Positions 6,629 through 29,441 are shown, counted from the stretch's first letter. The stretch is DNA of 41,305 nucleotides from a virus (IMGVR_UViG_3300020197_000054:1-41305), one strand, 5' to 3'. The notes: generated by a model from the letters alone, not told the origin. Made by a program: numbers and translations.

Positions 6629-7087
6629 ATGGCAGAAGGTAGAACATATGGTATTAATTTTCCTTTTAGAGATTCGGCTAAAGGTACTTATTTAGCTTTA
6701 TCAGAAGAAAGTGATGAAGAGATTAGAAGTAGTTTAATTCATTTACTTTTAACAAGAAAAGGTACGAGATATTATTTACCTGATTTTGGAACTCGTTTAT
6801 ATGAATTCATATTTGAACCCATGGATGGGCCAACTTTTTCAGATATTGAGGCAGAAATAAGAGAATCTGTTACGGAATATATACCAAATATTACAATAAC
6901 CAATATAAGTATTACTGACGCTTCCTTAGAGGAAGAAAATAAAGGAACTTTCATTAATGCAAACGGAGATAGAGAATTTGTGGTCCCTGGCATTGGTGAG
7001 AAAGAACATACCGCTAAAATTAAAATTGATTATACCATCACGGCATCGGCATTTAATCCGAGTGATTTTGTAATTATTAATATATAA
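6629..7087 (+). CDS. Baseplate wedge protein, T4 gp25-like
   Basis: A 152-aa protein of the gp25 / GPW family of baseplate wedge subunits, which connect the wedge to the tail tube and sheath initiation site. Typical features are the segment GTRYYLPDFGTRLYEFIFEP (about residues 49-68) with the family's G-x3-Y-x2-FGT-x-L-x-E-x-F pattern, followed by a helix, IEAEIRESV, and the beta strands ITITNISI. T4 gp25 is 132 aa. It is the first gene of the structural operon and is followed after 6 bases by the gp6-like gene, a neighbour in many contractile tail systems. Confidence 0.88.
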   Translation: MAEGRTYGINFPFRDSAKGTYLALSEESDEEIRSSLIHLLLTRKGTRYYLPDFGTRLYEFIFEPMDGPTFSDIEAEIRESVTEYIPNITITNISITDASLEEENKGTFINANGDREFVVPGIGEKEHTAKIKIDYTITASAFNPSDFVIINI

Positions 7088-7093
7088 TATATC

Positions 7094-8932
7094 ATGGCAA
7101 ATAAAAAGATTTCTTATACAACTAGAGATTTCCAACAGATAAGAACTGAGTTAATAAATTTTACAAGATTATATTATCCTGAACTTATTGATAATTTTAA
7201 CGACGCTTCGGTTTTCTCCGCTTTATTGGATTTAAATGCTGCGGTAACGGATAACTTACAATTCAATATTGATAGAAGTATACAAGAAACCGTATTACAA
7301 TATGCACAACAAAGGTCATCAGTATTTAATATTGCAAGAACATACGGACTTAAAGTTCCTGGCCAAAGACCTTCAGTTGCTCTTGTTGATTTTTCGATAA
7401 CAGTACCCGCATTTGGTGATAAAGAAGATTTAAGATATTGTGGTATATTAAGAAGAGGGGCTCAAGTTAACGGTGCAGGTCAAGTATTTGAAACAGTTTA
7501 TGATATTGATTTTTCATCACCAATCAATGCCGAAGGATACCCAAATAGACTTAAAATACCTAATTTCGATTCAAATAATAAGTTATTAAATTATACAATT
7601 GTTAAAAGAGAAACAGTTGTAAATGGGGTTACCAAAGTATTCAAAAGAACCATAACCGCAAACGATGTTAAACCATTCTTTGAATTATTTTTACCTGAAA
7701 AGAATGTTTTAGGTGTTACAAGTGTTTTATTAAAAGATGGTACTCAATATGCAAATATACCATCACCACAAGAATTTTTAGGTAATGATAATAGATGGTA
7801 TGAAGTAAAGGCTCTTGTTGAAGATAGAGTCTTTGTTGAAGACCCAACTAAAGTTTCTGACCAACCTGGTATTAAAGTTGGTAAATACTTAACAACAAGT
7901 GATAAATTTATAACTGAATACACACCTGAAGGATTTTTAAGAATGACTTTTGGTGGTGGTAGTCAATCCGCAGATGAACAATTAAGGGAATTTGCAAGGA
8001 ACGGGTTAAAACTTGATTTGTATAAATATTCCAACAACTTTGCATTAGGTAGTGTATTAAAACCAAACTCAACGTTATTTGTCCAATATAGAATTGGTGG
8101 AGGTTCAGGAAGTAATTTAGGTATCAATGTAATTACTCAAGTAGGTACGGTTTCATTTTTTGTTAACGGTCCTTCAGCTTCTGTTAACACAAATGTGGTT
8201 AATTCATTATCGTGTAATAATGTTACTGCAGCAATTGGTGGAGCACCCGCACCGACTACTGAAGAAGTAAGAAATTTAGTGACATTTAACTTTTCAGCAC
8301 AAAACAGGGCGGTAACTGTTAATGACTATGATTCGATTATAAGAACAATGCCGTCCCAATTTGGAGCACCCGCTAAAGTTGCGATTACCGAAGAAAATAA
8401 TAAGATAAAAATAAAAATGTTGTCTTTTGACGAGTCAGGTAATTTAACTGAGATAGTATCTAACACACTTAAAAATAATATCGCTAATTACCTTTCAAAT
8501 TACAGAATGTTAAATGATTACATTTCAGTTGAAAGTGCAAATGTTATTGATTTATCAATGAACATTGATGTGGTATTAGATAATAGTCAAACACAAGGGG
8601 CTTTAATTGCTCAAATTGTAAATTTAGTTACTGAATATTTTTCACCTTCAAATAGACAGATGGGTAGTAATGTTTATATATCGGAAATTAGAAGACAAAT
8701 ACAATCACAAAATGGTGTGATATCAGTATCTGATATCCAAGTATTTAATAAGGTTGGAGGACAATATTCTTCATCTCAAACATCTCAAGGATATATTGAT
8801 GACGAAACAAAACAAATTGGTTTAGTCGATGATACAATTTTTGCAGAACCTAGTCAAACATATCAAGTTAGATACTCTGGTAAAGATATTAATGTGAGAA
8901 TTAAAAACCTTTCTACAGTTAATTTTTCTTGA
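7094..8932 (+). CDS. Baseplate wedge protein, T4 gp6 / baseplate J-like
   Basis: A 612-aa wedge protein. The N-terminus (YTTRDFQQIRTELINFTRLYY, here split as YTTRDFQQ, then a helix) and the following NDASVFSALLDLNAAVTDNL match the start of T4 gp6-like proteins. Further features are a central beta-rich part with SADEQLREFARNGL, the segment TVNDYDSIIRTMPSQFGAPAK typical of baseplate J-type C-terminal domains, and a C-terminal domain with SPSNRQMGSNVYISEIRRQI. T4 gp6 is 660 aa. In contractile tails gp6 forms the ring that links the wedges. The stop is TGA and a 73-base gap follows before the next gene. Confidence 0.85.
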   Translation: MANKKISYTTRDFQQIRTELINFTRLYYPELIDNFNDASVFSALLDLNAAVTDNLQFNIDRSIQETVLQYAQQRSSVFNIARTYGLKVPGQRPSVALVDFSITVPAFGDKEDLRYCGILRRGAQVNGAGQVFETVYDIDFSSPINAEGYPNRLKIPNFDSNNKLLNYTIVKRETVVNGVTKVFKRTITANDVKPFFELFLPEKNVLGVTSVLLKDGTQYANIPSPQEFLGNDNRWYEVKALVEDRVFVEDPTKVSDQPGIKVGKYLTTSDKFITEYTPEGFLRMTFGGGSQSADEQLREFARNGLKLDLYKYSNNFALGSVLKPNSTLFVQYRIGGGSGSNLGINVITQVGTVSFFVNGPSASVNTNVVNSLSCNNVTAAIGGAPAPTTEEVRNLVTFNFSAQNRAVTVNDYDSIIRTMPSQFGAPAKVAITEENNKIKIKMLSFDESGNLTEIVSNTLKNNIANYLSNYRMLNDYISVESANVIDLSMNIDVVLDNSQTQGALIAQIVNLVTEYFSPSNRQMGSNVYISEIRRQIQSQNGVISVSDIQVFNKVGGQYSSSQTSQGYIDDETKQIGLVDDTIFAEPSQTYQVRYSGKDINVRIKNLSTVNFS

Positions 8933-15888: not shown

Positions 15889-16687
15889 TAAATTTTTATT
15901 TACCATACCTAACGATACTAAAGGGATTCAAATTCCTATAGAAATGAAATGGGATTTTTATGGTAGAACTGATAGTATTGAGTTATATGAGGATGATGTT
16001 TTAACAACAATCATAGGGGTTGCTGATGATTTTGAAGTAGTTAGATTTTCACATAACTCCTATGGTAATAATCAAGAGACTAAATTAGGATACGAGTTTT
16101 ATTTTTATGATGGACCACCACCAACAAACCAAAGCGTTTTAACATCCACAGTTACTGATTGGAAAAATAGTTATTTATCTGAAGGATTTACAGGTGATGA
16201 AATTTATTATTATACCAAACCATTCACAAAATCATTTTTTAAATTAGATTTTTATGATACTAACGATACAGTTACACAAACTAATTATTTTAGTGTGATT
16301 ATACCCGTTCAGCAAGGAGAAACTGAAAGTGTTAGTATTTCACCCTTATTTCCTAACGTTAATATTAAAAAACCAAAATATTCATTAGATTTTGTTGGTG
16401 ATAAAGAAGGTTTCTTTTTGTATTGGTTAGTGAATACAGAATTTTTAAACATCAACACCTTTTACATGTCGGCTAAATTTTTTGATGGTAAACTAGGGGT
16501 TTTTGTTAGAATGATGAACGAACCACAATCATCATTACCTAATAAATTTGTATTTGATTCTCCGAGGTATTTTTTTAATAAAGTTGTTTTAGATTATAAC
16601 ACTAAAACATATGAAATATTTGATTATTTAAACAACCGTATAGGTGCGGGAACACCAATAAAATGGTATGAATATATTAACCCTTAA
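15881..16687 (+). CDS. Structural protein, unknown, GTG start
   Basis: About 268 aa if translation starts at the GTG at 15881 (MSNKFLFTIPND). This overlaps the preceding stop by 8 bases and is preferred over a TTG at 15872. The protein is beta-rich, with many aromatic residues and Asp/Asn-rich turns (YEFYFYDGPPPTNQS, KSFFKLDFYDTNDTV), and ends in GAGTPIKWYEYINP. There is no signal peptide, membrane segment or recognised family. Overlap with the gene before and a TAATG junction with the gene after indicate coupled translation within the tail operon. Confidence 0.65.
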   Translation: MSNKFLFTIPNDTKGIQIPIEMKWDFYGRTDSIELYEDDVLTTIIGVADDFEVVRFSHNSYGNNQETKLGYEFYFYDGPPPTNQSVLTSTVTDWKNSYLSEGFTGDEIYYYTKPFTKSFFKLDFYDTNDTVTQTNYFSVIIPVQQGETESVSISPLFPNVNIKKPKYSLDFVGDKEGFFLYWLVNTEFLNINTFYMSAKFFDGKLGVFVRMMNEPQSSLPNKFVFDSPRYFFNKVVLDYNTKTYEIFDYLNNRIGAGTPIKWYEYINP

Positions 16688-17874
16688 TGGACGAAAGATA
16701 TTATAGTATAAGAATATCACCTGAAGTAATTAATGGTGATTTATTTTTACATTCATATGATGCGGGTAACTCAGAACCAGACCCTAACGACCCTTGTTGT
16801 GAAATTGTAACATCAACAACAACTTTAAATTTTACAGGTCTTACTTACGTGTATTCATCGATGACCCAAGTAGTTAGTGGAGGTACTGATGGAAGTTCGT
16901 TATTAACGGGACTAACTGTCCCTGTGTTTTTAACCGAAACGACTGTTGATGTTGGTTATTATTCTGTTTTTGATGGTATGGTATTACAAAAAGATACCAT
17001 GACTAATTTTTTATTTTCGGCATCGACATTTTCACCATATACCTATTATTTTTATAATACTTCAGATACTGAATTTAAAAAATATTTACAATTTGCAACA
17101 TATAAAGTGGATTGGGGAGATGGAACGCCAATTGATTTAATTACAACAACCGCACCCAATTTTTATAGTCATACTTATGCTCAAGATGGTGAATTCACAA
17201 TAACTTTTTCAGGAATGAGTCCTTGGGGAACAAATATTGTTGAAAAAACAGTCTATGTCCCATTCACAGGAGTTACAGTACCTAACCCAAATGGAACCGC
17301 GTATTTTTTACCTGCGGGAGGTAGTTGGTCAGGAACACCTTTAATGTATGATTATTTATTTACGGGAGATTCAAATTGTGATGTTTATGACCAATCAAGT
17401 TATAACTATACCACTGTACCATTTTTAATTTCTGGGTATACCACATCTACGATGACTGATTTACAACAATACGGTAGTAAATTTAATCCGATGATGTTTA
17501 ATGGTAAATATAAAATAGGTGTACAAGTTACAGGAACATCTGGTAGTATTGGGACTTTTTGGGGTCCATCTTTAGATAATACTTATACTGCCTATACAAT
17601 AAATGATATTGATTATTATGATTATAGTGATGGTACTACAGTATTCATGACTTATTCATCAGGTATGACACCTGATATGATAGTCTGTTCAGCAATTACA
17701 AAAAATGAGGTATTATTGAACGTAATTGATGAAGCAGAAATACAAACTAATGTATTTATAGAAAGAGGTAAAAACTCGGCATTAGAACGAATCCAAAGGT
17801 TAGGAGAAGTTGATAATGTGGGGGACCTTGAAAAATATGGATACAAATTTTTTAATGTAAAAAATACAGGATAA
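16687..17874 (+). CDS. Structural protein with a PKD domain
   Basis: 395 aa, start codon overlapping the preceding stop (TAATG). Residues ~138-190 form a PKD (polycystic kidney disease) Ig-like domain: VDWGDGTPIDLI, then FYSHTYAQDGEFTITFSG, which hold the WGDG-turn and the H-T-Y strand typical of the family. PKD folds serve as spacers or carbohydrate/protein contact modules in cell-surface and tail proteins and are common in Bacteroidota. The C-terminal ~50 residues switch to a helical, charged sequence (NSALERIQRLGEVDNVGDLE), perhaps the part that attaches to the baseplate. The precise role is unknown. Confidence 0.7.
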   Translation: MDERYYSIRISPEVINGDLFLHSYDAGNSEPDPNDPCCEIVTSTTTLNFTGLTYVYSSMTQVVSGGTDGSSLLTGLTVPVFLTETTVDVGYYSVFDGMVLQKDTMTNFLFSASTFSPYTYYFYNTSDTEFKKYLQFATYKVDWGDGTPIDLITTTAPNFYSHTYAQDGEFTITFSGMSPWGTNIVEKTVYVPFTGVTVPNPNGTAYFLPAGGSWSGTPLMYDYLFTGDSNCDVYDQSSYNYTTVPFLISGYTTSTMTDLQQYGSKFNPMMFNGKYKIGVQVTGTSGSIGTFWGPSLDNTYTAYTINDIDYYDYSDGTTVFMTYSSGMTPDMIVCSAITKNEVLLNVIDEAEIQTNVFIERGKNSALERIQRLGEVDNVGDLEKYGYKFFNVKNTG

Positions 17875-17875
17875 T

Positions 17876-18781
17876 ATGGCAACAGGAACTTACGGTACAA
17901 TAAGACCAGCGGACGTTTCCCCCGAAGATGTTGAGATAATTTTAAATTATACCCCATCAAGAGATGAAACTAATAATTTTGTATTAACTAAACTTGATGC
18001 GAAAACATTATTAAGACCTTATTTTAATAATGATAGTACTGGGGGTTCCTCAGTAGAAGTGTTAGGTGGTTTATATAATTTAACATTACCTTCAGACCAA
18101 TTTAATAAATTAGGGATTTATACTCTTTATATTAGACCTGCTCAAATCAGGACAACTATTTTGGATTGTGGGGTATTATCATCATTACCTAATGTTAGAG
18201 GTTTAGTAATTGATTTAAATTCAGTACCTTCTGAATATAGAAATAAATTTATAAATCAAGGGTTAGTTGGATTTAGAATTGAATATCTTAATACCGATGG
18301 GTCTAAGATACCTAATTTTTTTAGAATCATCACATCATCATTTTTTTGTGAACCCGTTGTTCAAAATTTAACCAACACATCGCAAAAAGCTATAAGATAT
18401 AGATACACCGAAAATAATACTAATTTAGTATTCTGTACTTTATCACCATCATCTGCACCAACAAACAAACCAAACGCAATACCTTTTATTGGACAACCAA
18501 ATCAAAGTATTGTAATATCTAATACATTCTTCAATCCAATAACATTAGATGTTGAAGTTGCGGAACATGACTTCTCAACGTTGGCAATTGCATTGTTTGG
18601 AAACCAAACTAAGTCTATCGATGACGGTATTTACACGATGTACGACACTCAAAATAACATCTATAGACAATACAATCTATATGAAATTAGAGACCAATTT
18701 AACGAGTTATTATTTGAGGTTAGACAAGATAGAGGTGATAATATTGATTTTAGTAAAAACTTTACAAATATAACACAATAA
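17876..18781 (+). CDS. Structural protein, unknown
   Basis: 301 aa, one base after the preceding stop. The start MATGTYGTIRPADVSPEDVE is followed by a mixed alpha/beta body with LGIYTLYIRPAQIRTTILDC and RGLVIDLNSVPSE. The C-terminus (YNLYEIRDQFNELLFEVRQD) is helical and charged. No family recognised; no signal peptide or membrane segment. Its place between the PKD protein and the 1006-aa protein, with the stop overlapping the next start (TAATG), marks it as a member of the baseplate/tail set. Confidence 0.65.
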   Translation: MATGTYGTIRPADVSPEDVEIILNYTPSRDETNNFVLTKLDAKTLLRPYFNNDSTGGSSVEVLGGLYNLTLPSDQFNKLGIYTLYIRPAQIRTTILDCGVLSSLPNVRGLVIDLNSVPSEYRNKFINQGLVGFRIEYLNTDGSKIPNFFRIITSSFFCEPVVQNLTNTSQKAIRYRYTENNTNLVFCTLSPSSAPTNKPNAIPFIGQPNQSIVISNTFFNPITLDVEVAEHDFSTLAIALFGNQTKSIDDGIYTMYDTQNNIYRQYNLYEIRDQFNELLFEVRQDRGDNIDFSKNFTNITQ

Positions 18782-21700
18782 TGGCGATTAAAAAATATAC
18801 TTGCCCTCCACAATCCGCAACAGGGGCGGGAACTTTTTCAGATGACTTAGTTGGATTACAATTAGTTGCTGGAGGAGGTTTAACGCAAGGAAATTTTGAA
18901 TTCGTTACGTCAACGTCTGAAAAGACTAATAGGAATTTTATTACAGGTGTTTTTTCTGACCCTATCAATTTAGAATCGATAGGTATTAATAGTATTGAAC
19001 AATCTAAAACTATTTTAGAAAAAAACTTTAAAGTCTATCCAAATTTTGATTTAACCCAAGTTAATAATTTTACACTATATGGGTCAATGGTCAAAAGAAT
19101 GTCGGCATCCGCAACTAAAATTATTAGTTTTTTCCCCGCAGCTATCGAATCGACCTTCATGGGTATAAATTATATTACAGGAGTAACCGCAAATAATATA
19201 GTTTATAGTGAATTAAATGACTCAACAACATTTGATTTAGATATTGCAAGATTAAGAAATCCATTCGATGTTGATTTTACCAATAACTCAACAAGAAATT
19301 TAGAACTTAAAGAAATACAAGTTTCTCCTTTAAGAGATATGAAAATACAATACGCTAAGTATTCTTTATTTTTTAATGATGGTGAATATAAAGTTATAAA
19401 TATAGTACCGACAGATAGTTTAAGTAATGGTATTTTAACATTAACTGTTAGTGGAGACCCTTTTTCAGGTGAAACTGTTGTTTTTGATAATTTAGTTATA
19501 CGTCCTAATGACCTTGAAGTTAATAGTGTTTTTAAAGAAGTTTTTGATGAGGTTGAACAGTTCTTATTAAATAGGAATGTTAGCCCAAAGTATACATCAA
19601 CATTTAATATACCAAGAGAAGCTGAAGATGGTAGTTATTATATTGAATCACTTAATCTTACATGGCCATTATATGGTACATGGAATATCGATATTTTAAC
19701 AAAGGCTTTTGAAAGTTACATTATATCGTTAAATGATGTTAGTGAATCTTTTGACGGATATAAAACAAATTTAATTTCTAGGTTTTTAACAACAGGTGCA
19801 TTTAAAGAGTTTGATACGATAGGTCAAAAAATGGAAAAAGTTCTACAAATTTATGGTAGAAGTTTTGACGAAACTAAAAAATATATAACCGCATTGTCAT
19901 TTATGACATCGGTTAATTATAATGTTGGTAATGATATACCATCACAATTATTAAAAAATTTAGCACAAACTTTAGGTTGGACAACTAATATGTCCCCAAT
20001 TTCTAACGAAGAGTTGTTGTCATCAGTTTTTGGAAAAACAAAACAAGATAAAAGTAACTTTACAGGAATATCTCAACCACAAACACCCGATGAATTAAAT
20101 TACCAATACTTTAGAAATTTAATTTTAAATTCCGCATTTTTATTTAAGTCTAAAGGAACTAGGAAATCAATTGAAATATTATTAAGACTTATTGGAGCTC
20201 CAGAAGCATTAATTGAATTTAATGAATATGTTTATTTAGCGGACCAAAAAATAAATTTATCTCAATTTAATGAACAATATATACAAATATCTGGAGGTAC
20301 TTACATCGAATTTACCCCAATATTAGACCCAACAGACATCTATTCAATTTTTGGAAATCAATACACAGGGTTTACGACAAGCGCAACTATAAAAGATGTG
20401 AATGTAAGTTTAGATGATTACCCGATGGACGAATTCGGGTACCCATATTCACCTCCAGATACCGAAGATTACTTTTTCCAAAAAGGTAGTGGATGGTTTG
20501 AACAAACACCACAACATAGGGCACCTGAAGAAGTTAACCTAACTAATAGTGTGTTTGTGGGAAATAACCCAAATTATCAAACAATGTTATTACCGTATTC
20601 ATATGGACAAGAATATTTAAATAGATTTAGAAAATTCCCATTTATGAATTTAGGGTATCAATTAACACCTACAATTGATAATAATAAAAGTTGGGTGGAT
20701 AATGAAGTTGGTATTAGAACTAATCTTGATGGTAATTTTAATGCTAGATATTTTGTAGAAGATGATAGATTAGTACTAAATGTTAAGAATGTTGATTTAT
20801 TTTTAAATCCTGCTCAAGGGTTGGTTTATGATGTATGGGTAATGTCTAGAGAATTTAACTACCCAATACCAAATCAAGGATTAAATTATATCCCACCAAC
20901 ATACTGTGACCCTAAACCATATAGTCCGTACCCTGGAAGAGGAGGTGTTGATTGGACGGAAATTGTACCATTACCAAAAAGAAAAACATTTTTTGAATTC
21001 GCTCAAACTTTTTGGTATAATATGATTAATGTGAGAAATCGACAATATGCCACAAACGGAAAAACAGGAGGTTACCCAACACTCGATTCAATATATTGGA
21101 AGTATTTAGAATCTCAACAAACTATCAATATTCCAAACGATAATTTTACATACAAAACAATGATGGATTATGTGAATGGATTGGGGGATTATTGGATTAG
21201 GTTAGTTGAGCAAATGATACCTGCAACAACTATTTGGAATACGGGTGTTAAATTAGAGAATTCTATATTCCATAGACAAAAATTTGTTTGGAGAAGACAA
21301 GAAGGGTGTCAATTAATACCTATACCATGTAAACCATGTTCATTAATAAATAACATATTTACATATGACTGCCCAATCGAAAGTGTAGAATGTGCAATAT
21401 ATCCTTGGGTTAACAACCCACAAATTCAAACTTTAAATGCGGTTTTAGGAAATGTTTTAAATTCGTATTTAACTACTAATGGTTATACATTAAATGATTG
21501 TGATTTTAATGGTATGACAACTAAATGGTTTGTTGATATTAGAGTTGACGATACCGTGGTTGTAAGTTATCCATTCTTTAGTGGTGTTGGTTATAGTAGC
21601 CCATCATATAGTTCACCAACTGTTGACATGTGGGATGATGCGTTAAGTAACGCTTTGGATTCTTTAAAAGATTATGGATTTGATTATTATTTAACAAATG

Positions 21701-21801
21701 AAGATACGGTTGTTGTTTATAATCAAGTATGTTCAGTTTCTGAACAAGGTATCAATTTTAAATTGAATATAGGGATAAACTTTGAAATATTATGTAATTA
21801 A
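18781..21801 (+). CDS. Large baseplate protein with a tail-protein-I-like segment
   Basis: 1006 aa. The middle (residues ~340-480) is helical and holds RSFDETKKYITALSFMTSVN, PSQLLKNLAQTLGW, and LFKSKGTRKSIEILLRLIGA. The KGT-x2-[SA]-I-x2-LLRLIG pattern followed by a short Pro/Glu turn resembles phage tail protein I / baseplate wedge proteins, where this region assembles with gp6/J. The N-terminal third is beta-rich. Residues ~560-760 are Pro/Tyr/Asn-rich, and the C-terminal ~160 residues begin with a Cys cluster (IPIPCKPCSLINN, YDCPIESVECAIYPW). The family likeness is an inference from the motif and operon position; T4 itself has no protein of this length and architecture. Confidence 0.7.
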   Translation: MAIKKYTCPPQSATGAGTFSDDLVGLQLVAGGGLTQGNFEFVTSTSEKTNRNFITGVFSDPINLESIGINSIEQSKTILEKNFKVYPNFDLTQVNNFTLYGSMVKRMSASATKIISFFPAAIESTFMGINYITGVTANNIVYSELNDSTTFDLDIARLRNPFDVDFTNNSTRNLELKEIQVSPLRDMKIQYAKYSLFFNDGEYKVINIVPTDSLSNGILTLTVSGDPFSGETVVFDNLVIRPNDLEVNSVFKEVFDEVEQFLLNRNVSPKYTSTFNIPREAEDGSYYIESLNLTWPLYGTWNIDILTKAFESYIISLNDVSESFDGYKTNLISRFLTTGAFKEFDTIGQKMEKVLQIYGRSFDETKKYITALSFMTSVNYNVGNDIPSQLLKNLAQTLGWTTNMSPISNEELLSSVFGKTKQDKSNFTGISQPQTPDELNYQYFRNLILNSAFLFKSKGTRKSIEILLRLIGAPEALIEFNEYVYLADQKINLSQFNEQYIQISGGTYIEFTPILDPTDIYSIFGNQYTGFTTSATIKDVNVSLDDYPMDEFGYPYSPPDTEDYFFQKGSGWFEQTPQHRAPEEVNLTNSVFVGNNPNYQTMLLPYSYGQEYLNRFRKFPFMNLGYQLTPTIDNNKSWVDNEVGIRTNLDGNFNARYFVEDDRLVLNVKNVDLFLNPAQGLVYDVWVMSREFNYPIPNQGLNYIPPTYCDPKPYSPYPGRGGVDWTEIVPLPKRKTFFEFAQTFWYNMINVRNRQYATNGKTGGYPTLDSIYWKYLESQQTINIPNDNFTYKTMMDYVNGLGDYWIRLVEQMIPATTIWNTGVKLENSIFHRQKFVWRRQEGCQLIPIPCKPCSLINNIFTYDCPIESVECAIYPWVNNPQIQTLNAVLGNVLNSYLTTNGYTLNDCDFNGMTTKWFVDIRVDDTVVVSYPFFSGVGYSSPSYSSPTVDMWDDALSNALDSLKDYGFDYYLTNEDTVVVYNQVCSVSEQGINFKLNIGINFEILCN

Positions 21802-24728
21802 TGTGTGATTTAAATGTATCTATTGCGGGTATAACAGGTGATTGTTTTAATACTGATTCAGGTGCTTTTACAATATCTATTAACGGTACGGCACCTGACT
21901 ATACAGTTGATTGGATAAACCCTCCTTATGGAACAATTCCATTAGGACCTGGAGTTGTTGGATACACTATAGATAATTTATCTGCAGGTACCTATACATT
22001 TGACATAATAGACAGTTGTTTACCCGATAATAATTACCAAACAATTAATGTTAATGTTTCATCAGGGACTTGTGTGAGTTTAACAGGTGTTGAGAACACA
22101 AGTTGTGGTTTAAATAATGGTAGTTTAACCGCAACAACAACAACACAGTATAACACCGCAAAATTCTATCTTTATGATACGACTATTGGATATATAACAT
22201 CCGCAACATCATTAAATAATTTTTATGTGTTTGACAATTTAGGTGCAGGAACATATTATGTTGTTGGAGATGACGGGGGCGGTTGTACAGGTAAATCAGA
22301 AACTTGTATAATAATGAATTCAAATGAACTTAGTGTTGGTTTATTCATAGTTAACGCTTCATCTTGTGCGCCAAATACAGGAGCTATTTATGTTACAGGA
22401 GTTACAGGTACACCACCATATACTTATTCATGGAGCCCTGGAGGGCAAACTACCAATTCAATAACAGGACTAACAGTAGGTAATTACATTTTAACTGTTA
22501 CAGACTCTGAAGGATGTATACAAAGTTCGGGAATTACAATTACCGCAAAACCACCTGTTGGTTTGGTCGATATTTCATTTGTTAACCCTACTTGTTTTGC
22601 TTCTGATGGTGAAGTTAGTTTAATAGTTTCAGGAGGAACCGCACCATTCCAATATGTAGGGTCGAATGGACACATTGATACTACATTTAGTAACACTAAT
22701 ACATTTTATAATATTCCTGCGGGACCATTTACAGTAGTAGTTAAAGATGCGGGTAATTGTAGTTTTACTGCAACGACTACATTGTTAACACCTGGAGGGT
22801 TAAATGTCACATCAGTTAATGTAACCAATTCAACATGCAGTGGGAATGGAGGTAAAATTGATGTTAATATTTTTGGAGGTTCGCCACCATATACATATAC
22901 TTTAACGGACTCATTAAGTAATAATACAGTGGTAAACGGGAATTTTACTAGTTGGTCTTTTAATGGTCTTTCTTCAGGTAGTTATATTTTAACAATTTCA
23001 GATTCAGGACCTTGCGATTTTGTGGGTACATATATAGTTAATAATAATGAATTATTTGAATTAACAGTTGAAACAACAGGTACGACATGTAATCAAGAAG
23101 ATGGTTCGGTATTACTATCAATTACCCCAGGAGGTACCCCACCATTCCACTATGAAATTGATGGTTATTCAGACTTCTCAAATAATTTAGAATTTTTATA
23201 TGAAAATCTACCAAGTGGTAACTATGTTGCAACAGTTACCGATGCTAATTATTGCCAACAAGAATTACCATTTACAATTGTAGGCTCAAGTACCGTAGAT
23301 TTTCTTTTAATTGGTACTGATTCATTAAATGGTAGTAATGGAACCATAAGCGCATTAATTACAAATGGTACACCACCATTTACATTAACTTGGAGTCCAA
23401 ATGTTAACGGTCAAACGGGTACTGAAATCGACACTCTTAGTGCTGGAACATATACTTTAACTGTTGTTGATAATAATGGATGTAGTAAAACAAGAACAAT
23501 TACAATAAATGGGTTTAATAAATTATCTTCATATCAAGTTTATAATATTTGTGATGAAGACTTTTTTAACACAGGTCAAACAGGTAGGAAAGGACCTCAA
23601 GAAATGTTAACTGAAGGATTCCATGATTTAACAAGTGGAGACACTAACTGTATTTTAAATAGAGCTATTTTCACAGTAAAAACAATTATTAATGGGGATT
23701 TAAAAGAACAATCATTTTATACAGGGGCAACACTATCAGATTTCCCATCAGATAATGAATTTTATGATGTTGTGGAAAGTTTACTTTTAACTTATAATAT
23801 CATTGGTGAAATTGTGATTGACGCGGTTAAAAATACATTAACAATTGAAAGCGTATGTGACGTAACAATCGAAACTTTAGACGCAACTGTTAAAGTTGAG
23901 TTGGACATATCTTATGATATTAGTTGTGAAACTTGTGAAACTCAAACACCAACACCAACACCTACAGCAACGCCTACACCTACTCCGACGCCAACAATAT
24001 CAGTCTCAGCATGTACTGTAATTTACGTTGTTGAAAATAATGATATATACGCATATGACCTATCATCAAATGTTAGTACATTGTTACCGGTCCCGTCAAA
24101 CGTTAGTAACGTTGATATTGCACACACGGATAGTAAATTATGGGTAAACAATAATTTTATGGTAAGGGAATGGGATATAACATTAAGCCCATTTAGTGCA
24201 ACATTCAATAGAGATATAACATTCCCATTTACAGTAGGTAATGGTTTAGGGGTCATCGATAATCAAACACTTATAACAACAAATGAATCATCCCCTCAAT
24301 CAGTTTATGAGATGGATATTACAACCACAACTGCGGTTGATACATTTAAATTTAACTTACCACCAACACATTTAGTTGCCGGAGATATAATGTTAACAAC
24401 AACCAATAAACTTTTAGTTACCACCGCGGAAAGTCCAAACATATATCTATTACAATATGATTATTTAACGGGTGTTTTAGAGTTAACAATAACTCTAAAC
24501 CCAACTGTTGGTGGTGGTCCTTGGGGTATCTTCGAGGAATTTGGTAATATTTATATCACCGATTCATTGGGGCGTATCTATAATGTGGATACGTCAAGTC
24601 CGTATAACATTACTTTAATTAACTCCACAGGTAACTTAATATATGGAGCATCTCAATCACCAGTATGTTTAACGACTGATTTTACAACTCCAACCCCAAC
24701 CCCAAGTATTACTCCTACCTTAACTTAA
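21801..24728 (+). CDS. Tail adhesin with SprB-type repeats, Thr/Pro linker and beta-propeller-like domain
   Basis: 975 aa, start overlapping the preceding stop. Residues ~3-570 contain about seven SprB-like repeats of 65-75 residues, each with a Cys near its start, a GG-x-PP-[FY] turn (GVTGTPPYTYSWSPGG, GGTAPFQY, GGSPPYTY, GGTPPFHYEIDG), a G-x-Y/F strand and a final TVTDSEGC-like end. SprB repeats are known from the flavobacterial gliding adhesin. A Thr/Pro linker follows at ~715-733. Residues ~735-955 then look like a six- or seven-blade repeat domain (NNDIYAYDLSSNVSTLL, NIYITDSLGRIYNVDTSS). The protein ends inside a second Thr/Pro tract (TPTPTPSITPTLT). An open -1 frame continues beyond the stop to 24799; see the separate entry. 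Probably a host-contact protein. Confidence 0.75.
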   Translation: MCDLNVSIAGITGDCFNTDSGAFTISINGTAPDYTVDWINPPYGTIPLGPGVVGYTIDNLSAGTYTFDIIDSCLPDNNYQTINVNVSSGTCVSLTGVENTSCGLNNGSLTATTTTQYNTAKFYLYDTTIGYITSATSLNNFYVFDNLGAGTYYVVGDDGGGCTGKSETCIIMNSNELSVGLFIVNASSCAPNTGAIYVTGVTGTPPYTYSWSPGGQTTNSITGLTVGNYILTVTDSEGCIQSSGITITAKPPVGLVDISFVNPTCFASDGEVSLIVSGGTAPFQYVGSNGHIDTTFSNTNTFYNIPAGPFTVVVKDAGNCSFTATTTLLTPGGLNVTSVNVTNSTCSGNGGKIDVNIFGGSPPYTYTLTDSLSNNTVVNGNFTSWSFNGLSSGSYILTISDSGPCDFVGTYIVNNNELFELTVETTGTTCNQEDGSVLLSITPGGTPPFHYEIDGYSDFSNNLEFLYENLPSGNYVATVTDANYCQQELPFTIVGSSTVDFLLIGTDSLNGSNGTISALITNGTPPFTLTWSPNVNGQTGTEIDTLSAGTYTLTVVDNNGCSKTRTITINGFNKLSSYQVYNICDEDFFNTGQTGRKGPQEMLTEGFHDLTSGDTNCILNRAIFTVKTIINGDLKEQSFYTGATLSDFPSDNEFYDVVESLLLTYNIIGEIVIDAVKNTLTIESVCDVTIETLDATVKVELDISYDISCETCETQTPTPTPTATPTPTPTPTISVSACTVIYVVENNDIYAYDLSSNVSTLLPVPSNVSNVDIAHTDSKLWVNNNFMVREWDITLSPFSATFNRDITFPFTVGNGLGVIDNQTLITTNESSPQSVYEMDITTTTAVDTFKFNLPPTHLVAGDIMLTTTNKLLVTTAESPNIYLLQYDYLTGVLELTITLNPTVGGGPWGIFEEFGNIYITDSLGRIYNVDTSSPYNITLINSTGNLIYGASQSPVCLTTDFTTPTPTPSITPTLT
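23943..23999 (+). repeat. Thr-Pro repeat tract (linker)
   Basis: A run of ACN-CCN codons encodes about nine Thr-Pro pairs between the SprB-repeat part and the propeller-like part of the 975-aa protein. Codons vary at the third position (ACA, ACG, ACT; CCA, CCT, CCG), so selection is on the peptide rather than on the DNA repeat. Confidence 0.8.
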
Positions 24729-24799
24729 ATGTATGGTGTTTCGGTAATCAAATATTAATCAGTAATACTACTAAATTTTTAGAATTAACTAATAGTTAA
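24680..24799 (+). other. Open -1 frame running past the stop of the 975-aa protein
   Basis: In the -1 frame relative to the 975-aa gene, the sequence is open from 24680 (just after a TGA) to a TAA at 24797-24799, 40 codons in all. It covers the terminal Thr/Pro tract and then the 71 bases after the annotated stop. The part after the stop would read NVWCFGNQILISNTTKFLEL plus four residues and would end three bases before the terminator stem. It could be a frameshifted C-terminus (programmed, or caused by an indel in the C-rich tract) or chance. Without a frameshift nothing starts here. Confidence 0.35.
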
Positions 24800-24802
24800 A
24801 AA

Positions 24803-24830
24803 AAAATATCGTCTAAAAAGACGATATTTT
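24803..24830. terminator. Bidirectional terminator between the convergent tail operons
   Basis: A perfect 12-bp stem (AAAATATCGTCT, loop AAAA, AGACGATATTTT) with A-rich sequence on the left and T's in the right arm, so it can end transcripts from both sides. It lies between the plus-strand SprB-repeat gene and the minus-strand RuvC-like gene. Confidence 0.85.
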
Positions 24831-24854: not shown

Positions 24855-25454
24855 TTACCAAATTTTTTCCTGATTCATATAACCTAATACACAACAGTAC
24901 GCATCGGTCATATCAAAATTCTCTTTTTTTAACGTATTATTTTTAGTATAGACCCAAGTAATTTGAGGTTCTCGTTCTGCAACCAAATCCCATATAATTT
25001 GTTTTTTGTCACAATCTTTTGGGTACCCACCGAACAGTACAAATTTACCTTTATCATTTTGTTGAATTAAATTAGGAAAGGCAGATTTTCTAGAATTATA
25101 AGTCGAGACGTACTCAGGAATAATACCCAAAATATCGTATATTTCTTTAGTTATTAGGGTATTAAACCTCATTAAAGTCTGAATGGTATAAACATTATTA
25201 CTATTCATTAAAGGTTCCTCAATCACAACTTTAGTTATACCTAAATTTTTATATTGAAGTAATTTACTTCTAAAAATTTCACTTTTTAGAATTAATTCTT
25301 TAATTTTATTATCTTGTTTAGGTTTAGGTATAGGTGATACATGGGTTAATTCCAACAACTCTCTTGACTCGATGTCAAATAATGCCCAACCAATGGTTTT
25401 GGTCGACACGTCTAACCCCAATACTTTTGGAGTATTCTCGATAGATTTTTTCAT
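24855..25454 (-). CDS. RuvC-like Holliday junction resolvase (RNase H fold)
   Basis: About 199 aa with the ATG at 25454, one base after the preceding stop; a TTG at 25466 would add four residues. The catalytic acidic residues of a RuvC-type nuclease are in order: VLGLDVSTKTIGWALFDI (first Asp, strand 1), KVVIEEPLM (Glu), and FDMTDAYCCVLGY (final Asp). The motif KKQIIWDLV lies between the last two. Such enzymes cut four-way junctions before DNA packaging. It is the last gene of the adhesin island, an odd neighbourhood for a recombination enzyme. Read-through from the tail-fibre genes may time it to late infection. T4 uses the unrelated gp49 for this job. RuvC-like proteins can also act in other nuclease roles, so the exact substrate is open. 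Confidence 0.8.
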   Translation of the reverse strand: MKKSIENTPKVLGLDVSTKTIGWALFDIESRELLELTHVSPIPKPKQDNKIKELILKSEIFRSKLLQYKNLGITKVVIEEPLMNSNNVYTIQTLMRFNTLITKEIYDILGIIPEYVSTYNSRKSAFPNLIQQNDKGKFVLFGGYPKDCDKKQIIWDLVAEREPQITWVYTKNNTLKKENFDMTDAYCCVLGYMNQEKIW

Positions 25455-25455
25455 A

Positions 25456-27984
25456 TTAAATGTCAAATTTAATCAAAAACTGCTGAATACCTTGTCTTAA
25501 AACAGGGGACTGCATTTTTGATATAATCATAAGATTTTTGTTAGAATCGTAAAGTCCAATTTCAGTTAAATACGAAGGTTTACCTTGTACCCATGTTGGA
25601 TTTGATGTTGCTTGAAATTCAGCCTGACTCAAATTTATCTTATATCTCATCTCATAAATTGTTGCTTGAATGTCAGTTTCTAATGAACCGTAGAAATAAT
25701 ATTCATCACCAAAATTTAATGATGTACCTGTATAACCAACGGGTGTTAATGGTATATAATTATTTAAGTTGTATGTTGGAGCGTCCTCATATAATTCATT
25801 TGTAATTACAAATGTCGTACTTGTTAACGATTCTTCAGTGATATAACCATTAACCATCATACTTGAGATTTGGTCTGTAAAATCAATTATCTTCCACTCA
25901 GAAGAGTTTGGTCTTCCTGTACCATCTACTTTTTGACAAATAATTTCAAATTTATCGGCGTAGAATCCTGATACAACATCACATCCCACAGGACAAGTTG
26001 TTGTTGTCGTAGTAAATGGGTCAAAAGTAGTCGTTGTCGTAGTAAATGGGTCAAACGTGGTAGTGGTTGTTGTTGGACTATATTCAGGTCTCAAACAAGG
26101 GAACTCAGCACCAAATCTAACCGCCACATTTTGAGATGGTTGTGGGTTACAATCAATATTAGGGCCTTGCATTACTGTGTAATAGTTACAATGTAATGAG
26201 TTTGTAAATACTGAAGTATTACTTAGTCTATAAGTAACGTGCATATATTGTGTATTACCCGTTAAAACACCTGTTAAAGAATTACTATCATTACCACAAG
26301 TATTAGGTGTGACTAATGAAGTCTTAGGAGCGGGTAACGTCCAATTCCTATTTGATTTATAAGACATTGCCGCGATAACTTCCTCATCGTCAATAATGAC
26401 AAGTTTAGAATCAGGAAATACTTTACCAATTCTATTAGGTAAGTTATTTGTATTTCTATGAGTATCCCATAAATGATAGTATCTAATACCTGGGGAATTC
26501 ATATCACTATTTTTAGTTGATTGTAAGTACTCAACTTTAAATAAATCTAAATCCTCAAATTCAGGTGGGTCAACCCAAAAAGTTTCACCAAAACAACATT
26601 CAGGATTTTTATGCCACATCAACCAAGGAATGTGTAATTTAAAGTTTCTTGCTTGACCCGTAGTATCTGAAGGGTTTGACACATCAAACGGCTCAAACGC
26701 AAATTTTTCACCATAGAAGAAATCTATAGTTTGATTTGTATAATGAATAACCGCAATTGCTTTTTGTTCTTCAGGAGTTACGATTACTTTATCACCTAAT
26801 GAATCATAATGGTACACTGAACTAGTGTTAGTTTGACCACTACTTGAAGCATAACCAAAGTATTCTTTAGTACCAAGATATTGTCTTGAACCAAAGTTGG
26901 TATAATCTTTACTAATCGATGAGAAAAGACCTGCAGGGTTTTCAGACCAAGGAATATTCATATTCCAAACTTTAACATCAAACTCATCAGTATAACAAAC
27001 AGATTCATAGTTAATAACATTATCCCTCCAATGAGGACGAGGAGTTATCGAATCATACATGGTTTGCATATTTGGTGGATATACAATCATTCTTGCATAA
27101 CAATCAGAAGATAAATTTGAAAAATCAGGTGTTGGTCTATCTAATGTAAATTCACCCAAACATATTGATGTTATTTTATAAGTTAACATTGAATAACAAC
27201 TACTAATAGGTGTTAAACAATCTGGCGGTGGTGGTGGGGGACAAGCTCTACTTGGGGTAGGTGTTGGACAGAATGTTGCAGATGGAGTTGGGGTAGGTGT
27301 AGGTGTCTCACAAGTAAATGACGCTGATGGGGTAGGTGATGGTGTTGGAGTTAGAGTATTATTACTTGCAGTTATACTTGGAGTAACCGTCATTGTTGGA
27401 GTTGGAGATGGTGTTGGGACATTTGAACATGTATTATTATATAAACCATTACCATCATAAAATATCGTAACAATGTCACCTACCGCAGGTTCTCTGAATG
27501 AAACACCATTAGAAACTAAAATTGGTGTTATAACATTGGTACCGTTTAAACTATTCATTCTTACTGAATAGTTTGCGTTGATAGCATATAAATCGTTAGT
27601 TATTGCACTCCATGAAGTAGTTTCGGCAGTTGTATTACCTGTGAAGAAACCTCTCATGGCGGCTCTGTTATAAACAGGACTAACTATTGAATCCATAAAA
27701 GGAACACCATATGTGTTGCCTGTAGAACCATCTACATAATATGGGTATTTAATATTTTCTTTATTTGATTGAGGAGACCCGCTAGAATTTTGAGCATTGA
27801 AGTTTGGCTCAAGAATCGTGGTATCAAATTGATTATAGGACACTGGTAATGTGTTATACGAAACTTCACTATCACCTATTTGAAAATAAGAAATATTAAA
27901 ATTACCTTGTGATAATTTTTGTCTTCCTGTATCAGTTAATCTTGTATTAATTAACCCCGATGTATTTTTAATAATGTATCCCAT
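25456..27984 (-). CDS. Tail fibre/adhesin with Thr/Pro and poly-Pro linkers
   Basis: 842 aa. The N-terminus (LINTRLTDTGRQKLSQGNFN, then YFQIGDSEVSY) resembles the attachment domain of phage tail-collar/fibre proteins, in which a 'T-x-x-G-x2-x-L-a-x-G' helix precedes a strand with GD. This suggests that it docks to the baseplate. Residues ~185-260 are Thr/Pro/Ser linkers interrupted by short Cys-bearing pieces and end in a run of six prolines (CPPPPPPD). Residues ~260-630 form a large globular region. Residues ~635-665 hold a duplicated Thr6-FDPF unit. The C-terminal ~180 residues are beta-rich and end in VLRQGIQQFLIKFDI. A TATTTAT box stands 5 bases upstream of its ATG, so it may have its own promoter. 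Confidence 0.72.
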   Translation of the reverse strand: MGYIIKNTSGLINTRLTDTGRQKLSQGNFNISYFQIGDSEVSYNTLPVSYNQFDTTILEPNFNAQNSSGSPQSNKENIKYPYYVDGSTGNTYGVPFMDSIVSPVYNRAAMRGFFTGNTTAETTSWSAITNDLYAINANYSVRMNSLNGTNVITPILVSNGVSFREPAVGDIVTIFYDGNGLYNNTCSNVPTPSPTPTMTVTPSITASNNTLTPTPSPTPSASFTCETPTPTPTPSATFCPTPTPSRACPPPPPPDCLTPISSCYSMLTYKITSICLGEFTLDRPTPDFSNLSSDCYARMIVYPPNMQTMYDSITPRPHWRDNVINYESVCYTDEFDVKVWNMNIPWSENPAGLFSSISKDYTNFGSRQYLGTKEYFGYASSSGQTNTSSVYHYDSLGDKVIVTPEEQKAIAVIHYTNQTIDFFYGEKFAFEPFDVSNPSDTTGQARNFKLHIPWLMWHKNPECCFGETFWVDPPEFEDLDLFKVEYLQSTKNSDMNSPGIRYYHLWDTHRNTNNLPNRIGKVFPDSKLVIIDDEEVIAAMSYKSNRNWTLPAPKTSLVTPNTCGNDSNSLTGVLTGNTQYMHVTYRLSNTSVFTNSLHCNYYTVMQGPNIDCNPQPSQNVAVRFGAEFPCLRPEYSPTTTTTTFDPFTTTTTTFDPFTTTTTTCPVGCDVVSGFYADKFEIICQKVDGTGRPNSSEWKIIDFTDQISSMMVNGYITEESLTSTTFVITNELYEDAPTYNLNNYIPLTPVGYTGTSLNFGDEYYFYGSLETDIQATIYEMRYKINLSQAEFQATSNPTWVQGKPSYLTEIGLYDSNKNLMIISKMQSPVLRQGIQQFLIKFDI
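26001..26075 (-). repeat. 30-bp tandem repeat encoding Thr6-FDPF
   Basis: Two 30-bp units (26001-26030 and 26031-26060) and a partial third share an exact 23-bp core starting at 26003 and 26033. They encode FDPF flanked by runs of six Thr. The near-identity at the DNA level, unlike the codon-varied Thr/Pro tracts, points to a recent duplication. Confidence 0.75.
27207..27420 (-). repeat. Thr/Pro/Ser and poly-Pro linker tract
   Basis: On the minus strand this region encodes a series of Thr-Pro and Ser-Pro pairs (PTPSPTPTM, TPTPSPTPS, ETPTPTPTPS, PTPTPS) separated by short Cys-containing pieces, ending in six prolines. It divides the N-terminal docking part from the rest of the 842-aa fibre protein. 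Confidence 0.8.
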
Positions 27985-28010: not shown

Positions 28011-29441
28011 TTATGACGTTATAATTGAACAACAACCACAACCGTAAATTTTTAAGTTTGATAAATTATATGTTTCATCACTTGTACCAACATAACAATT
28101 AACAAATTCATTTCTATTTACACTTGTTATTGTTCTAATTTTAAAATCACTTGTGTTATCTATAGTAATTGAATCCCACACTTCATTTAATGAAGTTAAC
28201 CAAACATTTTCCGATTGACAACCTGCAACTGTATTAATAATACTATCATCGTTTGTTGAAGATGAGGACGGTGGAATTATATTGATACCATCAATAGTTA
28301 ATGAGGTCTTGGTATTAAAAGTGGCGGAATCTTCATTAGGTGAAGATTTAGATAAGTTTAAATGACTCAATTTAAAGTTAATACTTGTACCATCAGGTAA
28401 ATCAGGTGTTATTGATAATGTTGTCGTGTACTCTTTAGTTAATAATGTACTATTTGCTTGTAGTGTTTTAGGTAGGGTAACTAATTTAACGTTATAAGTG
28501 GTTGGAGGTGATGGAGGATTTAACGTTATATTATTACTAACAGTAAATCCTTCAGAATCACTAACAACAACATTGTAGGAACCTGAACATAAATTACTGA
28601 ACATTGGTATATTTCTATATGTCAAACCACCATTAATCGAATATGAATATGGAGGGTAACCACCACTTGATTTAATTGTTAAACCACCATCACATCCACA
28701 TATTGTTTGGTTTTTAGTAATTAAAACATTCATAGGTTGGACCGAATCTTCTGATTCTGCCGAGAATCTACCATTTGGAATCCTTACTATTTGATTACAG
28801 TTACCTTCATAAACTATTACAGTACCTGTAGCGCCAATAATAAACCAACTACCATAAATTGGTGGGTAAGTAGGATTTGAATTAAATATTGTATAAGTTG
28901 TTGGAGTTGAAGCCGATAACTTCCATTGTAAAAGAGTTGAGTCCCAATATATTACTTGTGTTGAGTCATTAGAAATCCAAGAAGGTTTAGAATTAAATAA
29001 ACCGTTAGGTGAAAAATTAGTTTGAGTTTCTACATAAGAACCTTGTTTAAGTATATTTGTTGTCATACAAAGTTGATACTCAATATAAGGAGTTGTAGGT
29101 GTTGGGGTCGGTGTGGGGGAAGGTGTTGGTGTTGAACCTGTTAAAATACATTTTGTATTTGCGGTAAAATCGCCATAAGAATCAATAACTGTTGCTTCAT
29201 AAACACCTGCAGTTAAATTGTATATAACGGGTGAAATGTTACCGTTATTCCAGCTTATATAATATGGAGGAGTTCCTCCCGTTATTGTTAAATAAATCGA
29301 ACCATCGGATGATGATGGAGAAGGATGAGTAAGATTACACTCAACACCCATAGGGAATAAAGTGATTGGTTCACATTCATTTGTGAACTCAGGTATTATT
29401 GGTTTAGGTGTAGGAGTTGGTCCTAAAAAAGGATAAGTCAT
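28011..29441 (-). CDS. SprB-repeat tail protein with Thr/Pro linker
   Basis: 476 aa. Residues ~20-98 contain one SprB-like repeat (SDGSIYLTITGGTPPYYISW, then YEATVIDSYGDFTANTKC). A Thr/Pro/Ser linker follows (~100-116), then an uncharacterised domain. A second SprB-like repeat lies at ~235-310 (CDGGLTIKSSGGYPPYSYSI, SGSYNVVVSDSEG), and the C-terminal beta domain ends in a Cys-rich tail, GCGCCSIITS. No signal peptide is present, as expected for a virion protein. It lies between the glycosyltransferase-like gene and the 842-aa fibre gene and shares linker and repeat type with the 975-aa protein of the opposite operon. This suggests exchange of modules between fibre genes. A host-surface contact role is inferred. 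Confidence 0.72.
   Translation of the reverse strand: MTYPFLGPTPTPKPIIPEFTNECEPITLFPMGVECNLTHPSPSSSDGSIYLTITGGTPPYYISWNNGNISPVIYNLTAGVYEATVIDSYGDFTANTKCILTGSTPTPSPTPTPTPTTPYIEYQLCMTTNILKQGSYVETQTNFSPNGLFNSKPSWISNDSTQVIYWDSTLLQWKLSASTPTTYTIFNSNPTYPPIYGSWFIIGATGTVIVYEGNCNQIVRIPNGRFSAESEDSVQPMNVLITKNQTICGCDGGLTIKSSGGYPPYSYSINGGLTYRNIPMFSNLCSGSYNVVVSDSEGFTVSNNITLNPPSPPTTYNVKLVTLPKTLQANSTLLTKEYTTTLSITPDLPDGTSINFKLSHLNLSKSSPNEDSATFNTKTSLTIDGINIIPPSSSSTNDDSIINTVAGCQSENVWLTSLNEVWDSITIDNTSDFKIRTITSVNRNEFVNCYVGTSDETYNLSNLKIYGCGCCSIITS
29092..29140 (-). repeat. Thr-Pro linker tract in the 476-aa protein
   Basis: On the minus strand this encodes STPTPSPTPTPTPTTP, the linker between the first SprB-like repeat and the following domain. 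Confidence 0.8.

Follow-up and report, generated by a model that had tools for sequence, protein, structure and literature searches.

A constant SprB-type repeat core and an exchangeable tip in a putative tail fibre of uncultured phages

Seven SprB-type repeats at the locus

The window analysed here is the whole 41,305-nucleotide stretch of viral DNA IMGVR_UViG_3300020197_000054:1-41305, and the subject of this report is its open reading frame (ORF) at 21801-24728 on the plus strand, which encodes a putative tail fibre of 975 amino acids (aa). The ORF begins with an ATG that overlaps by one base the stop codon of the ORF for a conserved 1006-aa protein (18781-21801, plus strand). It comprises seven repeats (residues 1-571), a cap domain (residues 572-713; 23514-23939) and a tip (residues 714-975; 23940-24725), and is followed by the remnant of an earlier tip (24728-24805). 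The initial annotation, made from the DNA sequence, had described SprB-type repeats on a phage tail protein; the conserved cap and the variable tip go beyond it.

A search with the hidden Markov model of the Pfam SprB family (PF13573) matched the 975-aa protein with E = 5e-25 and 87.3 bits, compared to the curated gathering cut-off of 28 bits, and five stretches passed this cut-off alone. In a six-frame search of the whole genome, the same profile matched at seven places, three of which individually exceeded the cut-off, and it matched none of 14 control genomes. The repeats, estimated initially as about seven over the first ~570 residues, number exactly seven, each of 74-91 aa. Repeats 1 (21801-22073, residues 1-91) and 2 (22074-22337, residues 92-179) are Ig-like but too divergent to reach the Pfam threshold alone. 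Repeats 3 (22338-22565, residues 180-255), 4 (22566-22805, residues 256-335), 5 (22806-23057, residues 336-419; the top Pfam score), 6 (23058-23291, residues 420-497) and 7 (23292-23513, residues 498-571) are recognizable SprB repeats. The GG-x-PP-Y turns and TVTDSEGC-like ends named in the initial annotation were found in repeats 3-7 as G-x-[PA]P-[YF] turns and D-x-x-x-C ends (TVTDSEGC, TISDSGPC, TVTDANYC, TVVDNNGC and others).

A structure prediction by AlphaFold2 from a 61-sequence alignment is consistent with these assignments. Residues 1-570 were modelled as a chain of beta-sandwiches, mostly with a predicted local distance difference test (pLDDT) score of 85-94, followed by an alpha/beta cap at about residues 595-712 and by a beta-rich C-terminus of low confidence. 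Assignment to a different Ig-like family, which the initial annotation had named as the outcome that would speak against SprB, fails, as the other Ig-like Pfam matches reached E = 4e-6 or weaker, compared to 5e-25 for SprB. No BACON family was found among the Pfam matches of the protein.

A constant core and exchangeable tips

To compare relatives of the protein, the core was defined as the part aligned to residues 1-713 (the seven repeats and the cap), and 96 distinct complete proteins were examined. The core was 710-738 aa long in 92 of the 96, at identities down to 38%. The exceptions, named by locus, were L087 (803 aa) and L063 (806 aa), which each hold about one extra repeat, L089 (744 aa) and L172 (761 aa). 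When a repeat was compared with those of another genome, its top match was the repeat at the same position in 94-100% of the comparisons. In a tree that included 164 bacterial repeats from 82 arrays, each phage repeat position formed its own clade apart from the bacterial repeats, with supports of 0.88-1.00; the sequences are short, and the clades were pure save for two bacterial intruders at position 6.

The 82 bacterial arrays differ from this pattern. They contain 4-37 repeats, often as near-identical copies, with a median of mean internal identity of 0.43, and about half of them include a pair above 0.6 identity, whereas the seven repeats of the phage array share a mean internal identity of 0.32. 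The bacterial SprB-repeat proteins, including SprB itself, nevertheless share with the window protein the repeat family, an Ig-like fold and a period of about 75-90 aa (~76 aa in the bacterial arrays, estimated from the spacing of matches, and units of 74-91 aa in the window protein). A type IX secretion system (T9SS) sorting domain was not found in the window protein, which had no NCBIfam match, TIGR04183 included, and its N-terminus (MCDLNVSIAGITGDC) shows by eye neither a positively charged start nor a long hydrophobic stretch. By sequence, the 975-aa protein belongs to the SprB repeat family, but it is not an SprB adhesin, because a sorting domain and a variable-length array were both looked for and neither was found; it also differs from the bacterial proteins in lying in a phage tail operon. 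In addition, the position-specific clades, the fixed repeat number and the low internal identity compared to the bacterial arrays indicate that the phage array is old and stable rather than copied recently from an adhesin of the host.

These comparisons bear directly on the proposal that the repeats mimic or bind host surface layers, in which they would have been taken recently from an SprB-type adhesin of the host and would blend with, or dock into, a gliding surface layer. The shared Pfam family and the Bacteroidota origin of the top bacterial matches are compatible with such a capture, as is the result of a Foldseek search, in which the nearest solved structures were pieces of GhpA, the grappling-hook protein of Aureispira (PDB 9flp, 9fly and 9flw), which likewise consist of tandem Ig-like domains of a Bacteroidota filament. 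GhpA, however, shares only 15-19% identity with the window repeats, and VIA-align ranks it on a par with generic Ig and fibronectin chains from human proteins; we therefore claim no kinship between GhpA and the repeats. Recent capture or mimicry is very unlikely and was rejected, since the phage repeats form separate, position-specific clades in an array fixed at seven, the sorting domain is absent, and it is the tip that changes instead.

Beyond residue 713, the 96 proteins carry 0-788 aa that fall into about 20 unrelated groups. Tip similarity was detected in just 5-9% of the pairs with core identity below 0.6, and many pairs with core identity above 0.7 have differing tips. The tip families include a YncE-like beta-propeller (L017) and DUF285/PARCEL arrays (L020:10101-12464, L088:10137-11711 and L140:13181-15199, with E down to 1e-164), a repeat type otherwise named after surface proteins of Mycoplasma and Listeria. 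The tip of L097 (13160-14203, CFIKGTKITLASG...) has a weak match to the Pfam family Hom_end_hint (E = 0.004), and such a Hint-like, self-splicing or autoprocessing domain is odd for a tail fibre. Other tail ORFs contain some of the tip domains as well. Separate ORFs directly downstream of the fibre gene (L130:13979-14845, L132:14249-15121 and L169:14383-15258) carry a Thr-Pro linker and a domain that forms the tip in L033, L128 and L134.

The sharpest comparisons were obtained between close relatives. L074 and L078 share 98.98% identity across the 3,915 bp that precede the junction and 96.2% across the 7,015 bp that follow it, yet their tips, of 265 and 71 aa, are unrelated. Between the window and L013, homology is lost after residue 713 and regained at the stop codon. 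From 24728 onwards the DNA encodes NVWCFGNQILISNTTKFLELTNS and a stop; these are the final residues of the L013 tip, and over 77 bp the DNA is 92.2% identical to the 3' end of the sequence for that tip. This stretch is a fossil of a replaced L013-type tip. The window's own tip consists of a Thr-Pro linker, a beta-rich domain that looks propeller-like by eye, and a Thr-Pro end. A Thr-Pro-type linker lies near the start of 41 of the 72 tips of at least 60 aa and in none of the cores, and the Thr-Pro DNA at both ends of the window tip is a plausible recombination seam.

The variable C-termini might instead be neutral fusions or assembly errors, given that some members have no extension and that low-complexity Thr-Pro DNA can be misassembled. 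This explanation is highly improbable, because separately assembled contigs reproduce the junctions of the window: L008 spans both and differs solely at 19509-19510, and L012 spans the 3' junction without a mismatch. The tips are also intact, diverse and recurrent across distant cores, and the replacement between L074 and L078 is limited to the segment behind the cap.

Gene order, phage family and probable host

The fibre gene is the last of a same-strand run that begins with genes for a gp25-like (6629-7087, plus strand; phrog_261, 5.9e-18) and a gp6/J-like (7094-8932, plus strand; phrog_219, 2.9e-26) baseplate wedge subunit, and this run is therefore the baseplate gene cluster of a contractile tail. 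Its position supports the initial assignment to a phage tail protein. The cluster also encodes a 395-aa protein (16687-17874) with a weak PKD-domain match (E = 0.005).

Relatives of the 1006-aa protein are encoded on 537 of the IMG/VR stretches examined. Eighty loci were kept, of which six end inside the 1006-aa gene, and in all 74 that extend past it an SprB-stalk gene lies directly downstream. The one-base stop/start overlap was found in 71 of the 96. The 1006-aa protein has a C-terminal domain that hhalign relates to the cap (96.6%); the two domains are paralogous. This relationship and the gene overlap suggest that the 1006-aa protein and the fibre probably assemble together. The similarity of the same C-terminal domain to tail components of T7 and cyanophages (Z ~4) was too weak and was not used. 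The protein was modelled with a mean pLDDT of 54.8, and no structure matched it above Z 5.8.

Placement on the head or on neck whiskers, as an Ig-like decoration that binds environmental glycans and has no specific receptor role, was also considered. At the sequence level, the repeats have their top PDB matches among decoration proteins and neck-whisker proteins of phages (E = 4e-4 to 3e-3), and a second SprB-repeat protein of the window has a weak Hoc-like match. We regard this placement as unlikely, since in 74 of 74 loci the gene order links the fibre gene both with the baseplate operon and with the 1006-aa gene that overlaps it, and a fixed length together with a swapped tip would be unusual for a decoration protein.

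The second SprB-repeat protein (476 aa, two repeats; 28011-29441, minus strand) is a conserved neighbour with Thr-Pro linkers, and PF13573 matched it in two stretches (E = 1.7e-9, 37.6 bits), consistent with the initial annotation, which had seen the same repeat type there. It belongs to an opposite-strand group behind the fibre gene, together with an 842-aa tail-type protein with Thr-Pro linkers (25456-27984, minus strand) and a RuvC-like resolvase (24855-25466, minus strand). The resolvase gene separates the fibre gene from the other tail genes in the window, as well as in L009, L010 and L011. In a relative (L020/L117), the homologue of the 842-aa protein has a domain in common with a tip of the fibre family. 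In 42 of 71 relatives, the homologue of the 476-aa protein and the fibre are encoded on one strand; the opposite-strand island is therefore a local arrangement. No tRNA genes were found in the window.

Contigs of the family include some of more than 200 kb, with a maximum of 318 kb, indicating that part of the clade consists of jumbo phages. A profile search of genome contigs with the 1006-aa protein gave no relative, so that a prophage in a sequenced genome was rejected as the source. A full-length core homologue, A0A6J5LD72 (714 aa, 35% identity; uncultured Caudovirales phage, UniProt/BFVD), lacks an extension and carries an automatic 'SprB repeat' annotation only; the bare observation is therefore not new to databases. 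A full-text literature search for 'SprB repeat' with 'phage' returned only work on Bacteroidetes toxins.

SprB repeats also occur elsewhere in large phages. The 642-kb huge phage of L263 (LR756502, record 515422-518061) encodes a 1675-aa protein with 12 SprB repeats, and the 1006-aa neighbour was not found within its 25-kb locus. The 203-kb contig of L116 encodes further SprB proteins of 961 and 1866 aa (7707-8051 and 194492-195274), whose Pfam SprB scores (E ~1e-14) exceed those of the stalk repeats and which are possibly a separate, later acquisition.

The initial annotation had also proposed a gliding Bacteroidota host, and the two parts of this proposal fared differently. Three lines of evidence support a host from Bacteroidota, which are probably also the hosts of the virus group as a whole. 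First, the closest phage large-subunit ribonucleotide reductases are those of Cellulophaga and Tenacibaculum phages or of uncultured huge phages, with ~40% identity, compared to 29% for the next group. Second, a Shine-Dalgarno-like 4-mer precedes 1 of 35 genes, which is below the 6-7% seen at random positions, and Bacteroidota naturally lack Shine-Dalgarno sequences (PMC6847099). Third, the 80 best bacterial repeat loci all bear Bacteroidota names, save one that is titled only 'uncultured bacterium'. The Bacteroidota promoter motif TAnnTTTG, found 71 times against 72.6 expected, gave no evidence either way.

A host from a gliding lineage is plausible, but the evidence is indirect. In the genome sample (G001-G121), SprB was detected at E<1e-7 in 23 of 118 Bacteroidota genomes, and GldD was present in 23 of 23 SprB-positive genomes compared to 3 of 40 SprB-negative ones. 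This contrast may merely reflect which classes were drawn, and the phage repeat does not prove that the host shares it.

Proposed architecture and its meaning

Taken together, these results suggest, with a probability of about 0.72, that the 975-aa protein is a baseplate-attached tail fibre, or a spike-like appendage, that combines a stalk of the SprB type with an exchangeable tip, the probable receptor-binding part. The seven Ig-like domains would form a stalk of fixed length that projects from the baseplate of a large contractile-tailed Bacteroidota phage and is attached to it probably via the 1006-aa protein. The cap domain would end the stalk and hold the tip, which is optional and probably attaches to the surface of the host. 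Tips are swapped among phages as cassettes, and the swaps begin exactly where the cap ends; in the window phage, a beta-rich tip flanked by Thr-Pro segments has taken the place of an L013-type tip, whose last 23 codons survive after the new stop.

Because the tip, and not the repeat array, changes between close relatives, the repeats are more likely to be structural than binding, and the tip, if the fibre follows the usual pattern of tail fibres, is the leading candidate for the receptor-binding part. Several observations weigh against this assignment. In roughly one quarter of the proteins the extension is very short or missing, so that the tip is either not essential or carried on another gene. 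The window's tip matched no Pfam or PHROG family, its structure model is of low confidence, and its beta-propeller nature was judged by eye only. The 1006-aa protein had no match in 50,697 phage records, and thus no cultured relative there. Its comparison with the family of P2 gpI (tail protein I) gave a suggestive motif only and no secure identification: the top hhalign match was a KGT motif at residues 444-495, with a score of 26.7 compared to 11.4 for the reversed profile and a probability of only 3%, and neither Pfam nor PHROG supported it.

A broader generalization is doubtful, although conceivable. The seven-domain SprB stalk and its cap might serve as a universal docking rod throughout this uncultured clade, part of which is jumbo-sized, and might receive unrelated domains for surface binding (beta-propellers, PARCEL/DUF285 arrays, Cys-rich and Hint-like domains) as cassettes, and replaced tips might persist as remnants or downstream ORFs that form a reservoir for re-switching.

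The closest precedent is found in crAssphage, whose tail proteins carry tandem repeats of the BACON domain (PMC6949934). Both cases place a Bacteroidota-type tandem repeat with phage tail genes, and the array of the crAssphage lineage is likewise distinct from bacterial domains, whereas the domain family and the phage group differ, and the fixed seven repeats and the cassette-swapped tip are features of the window family. Receptor-binding proteins are among the phage protein classes with recent domain mosaicism (PMC10684548). The window protein resembles such modular proteins, and the tail fibres or receptor-binding proteins of contractile phages, in its baseplate-cluster location and in joining a conserved part for attachment to a distal part that is exchanged horizontally; it differs in its SprB-type Ig-like stalk, its defined cap and the remnant of an old tip behind the stop. 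Thus, tail fibres whose distal parts are exchanged, and phage tails with repeats of a Bacteroidota type, are of a known kind. New are an SprB-type stalk whose length stays constant throughout a large uncultured clade, the sharp boundary between cap and tip, and the fossil of tip replacement.

Overall, an abundant phage group with no cultured member in the collection searched gains a recognizable candidate gene for host recognition, with the boundary between its constant and variable parts at residue 713. The assignment of tips to hosts would be testable from metagenomes, in which near-identical genomes with different tips provide natural experiments. The findings suggest that a Bacteroidota-type surface repeat has been domesticated as a phage structural part of fixed length, in parallel to, and independently of, the BACON repeats of crAssphage.

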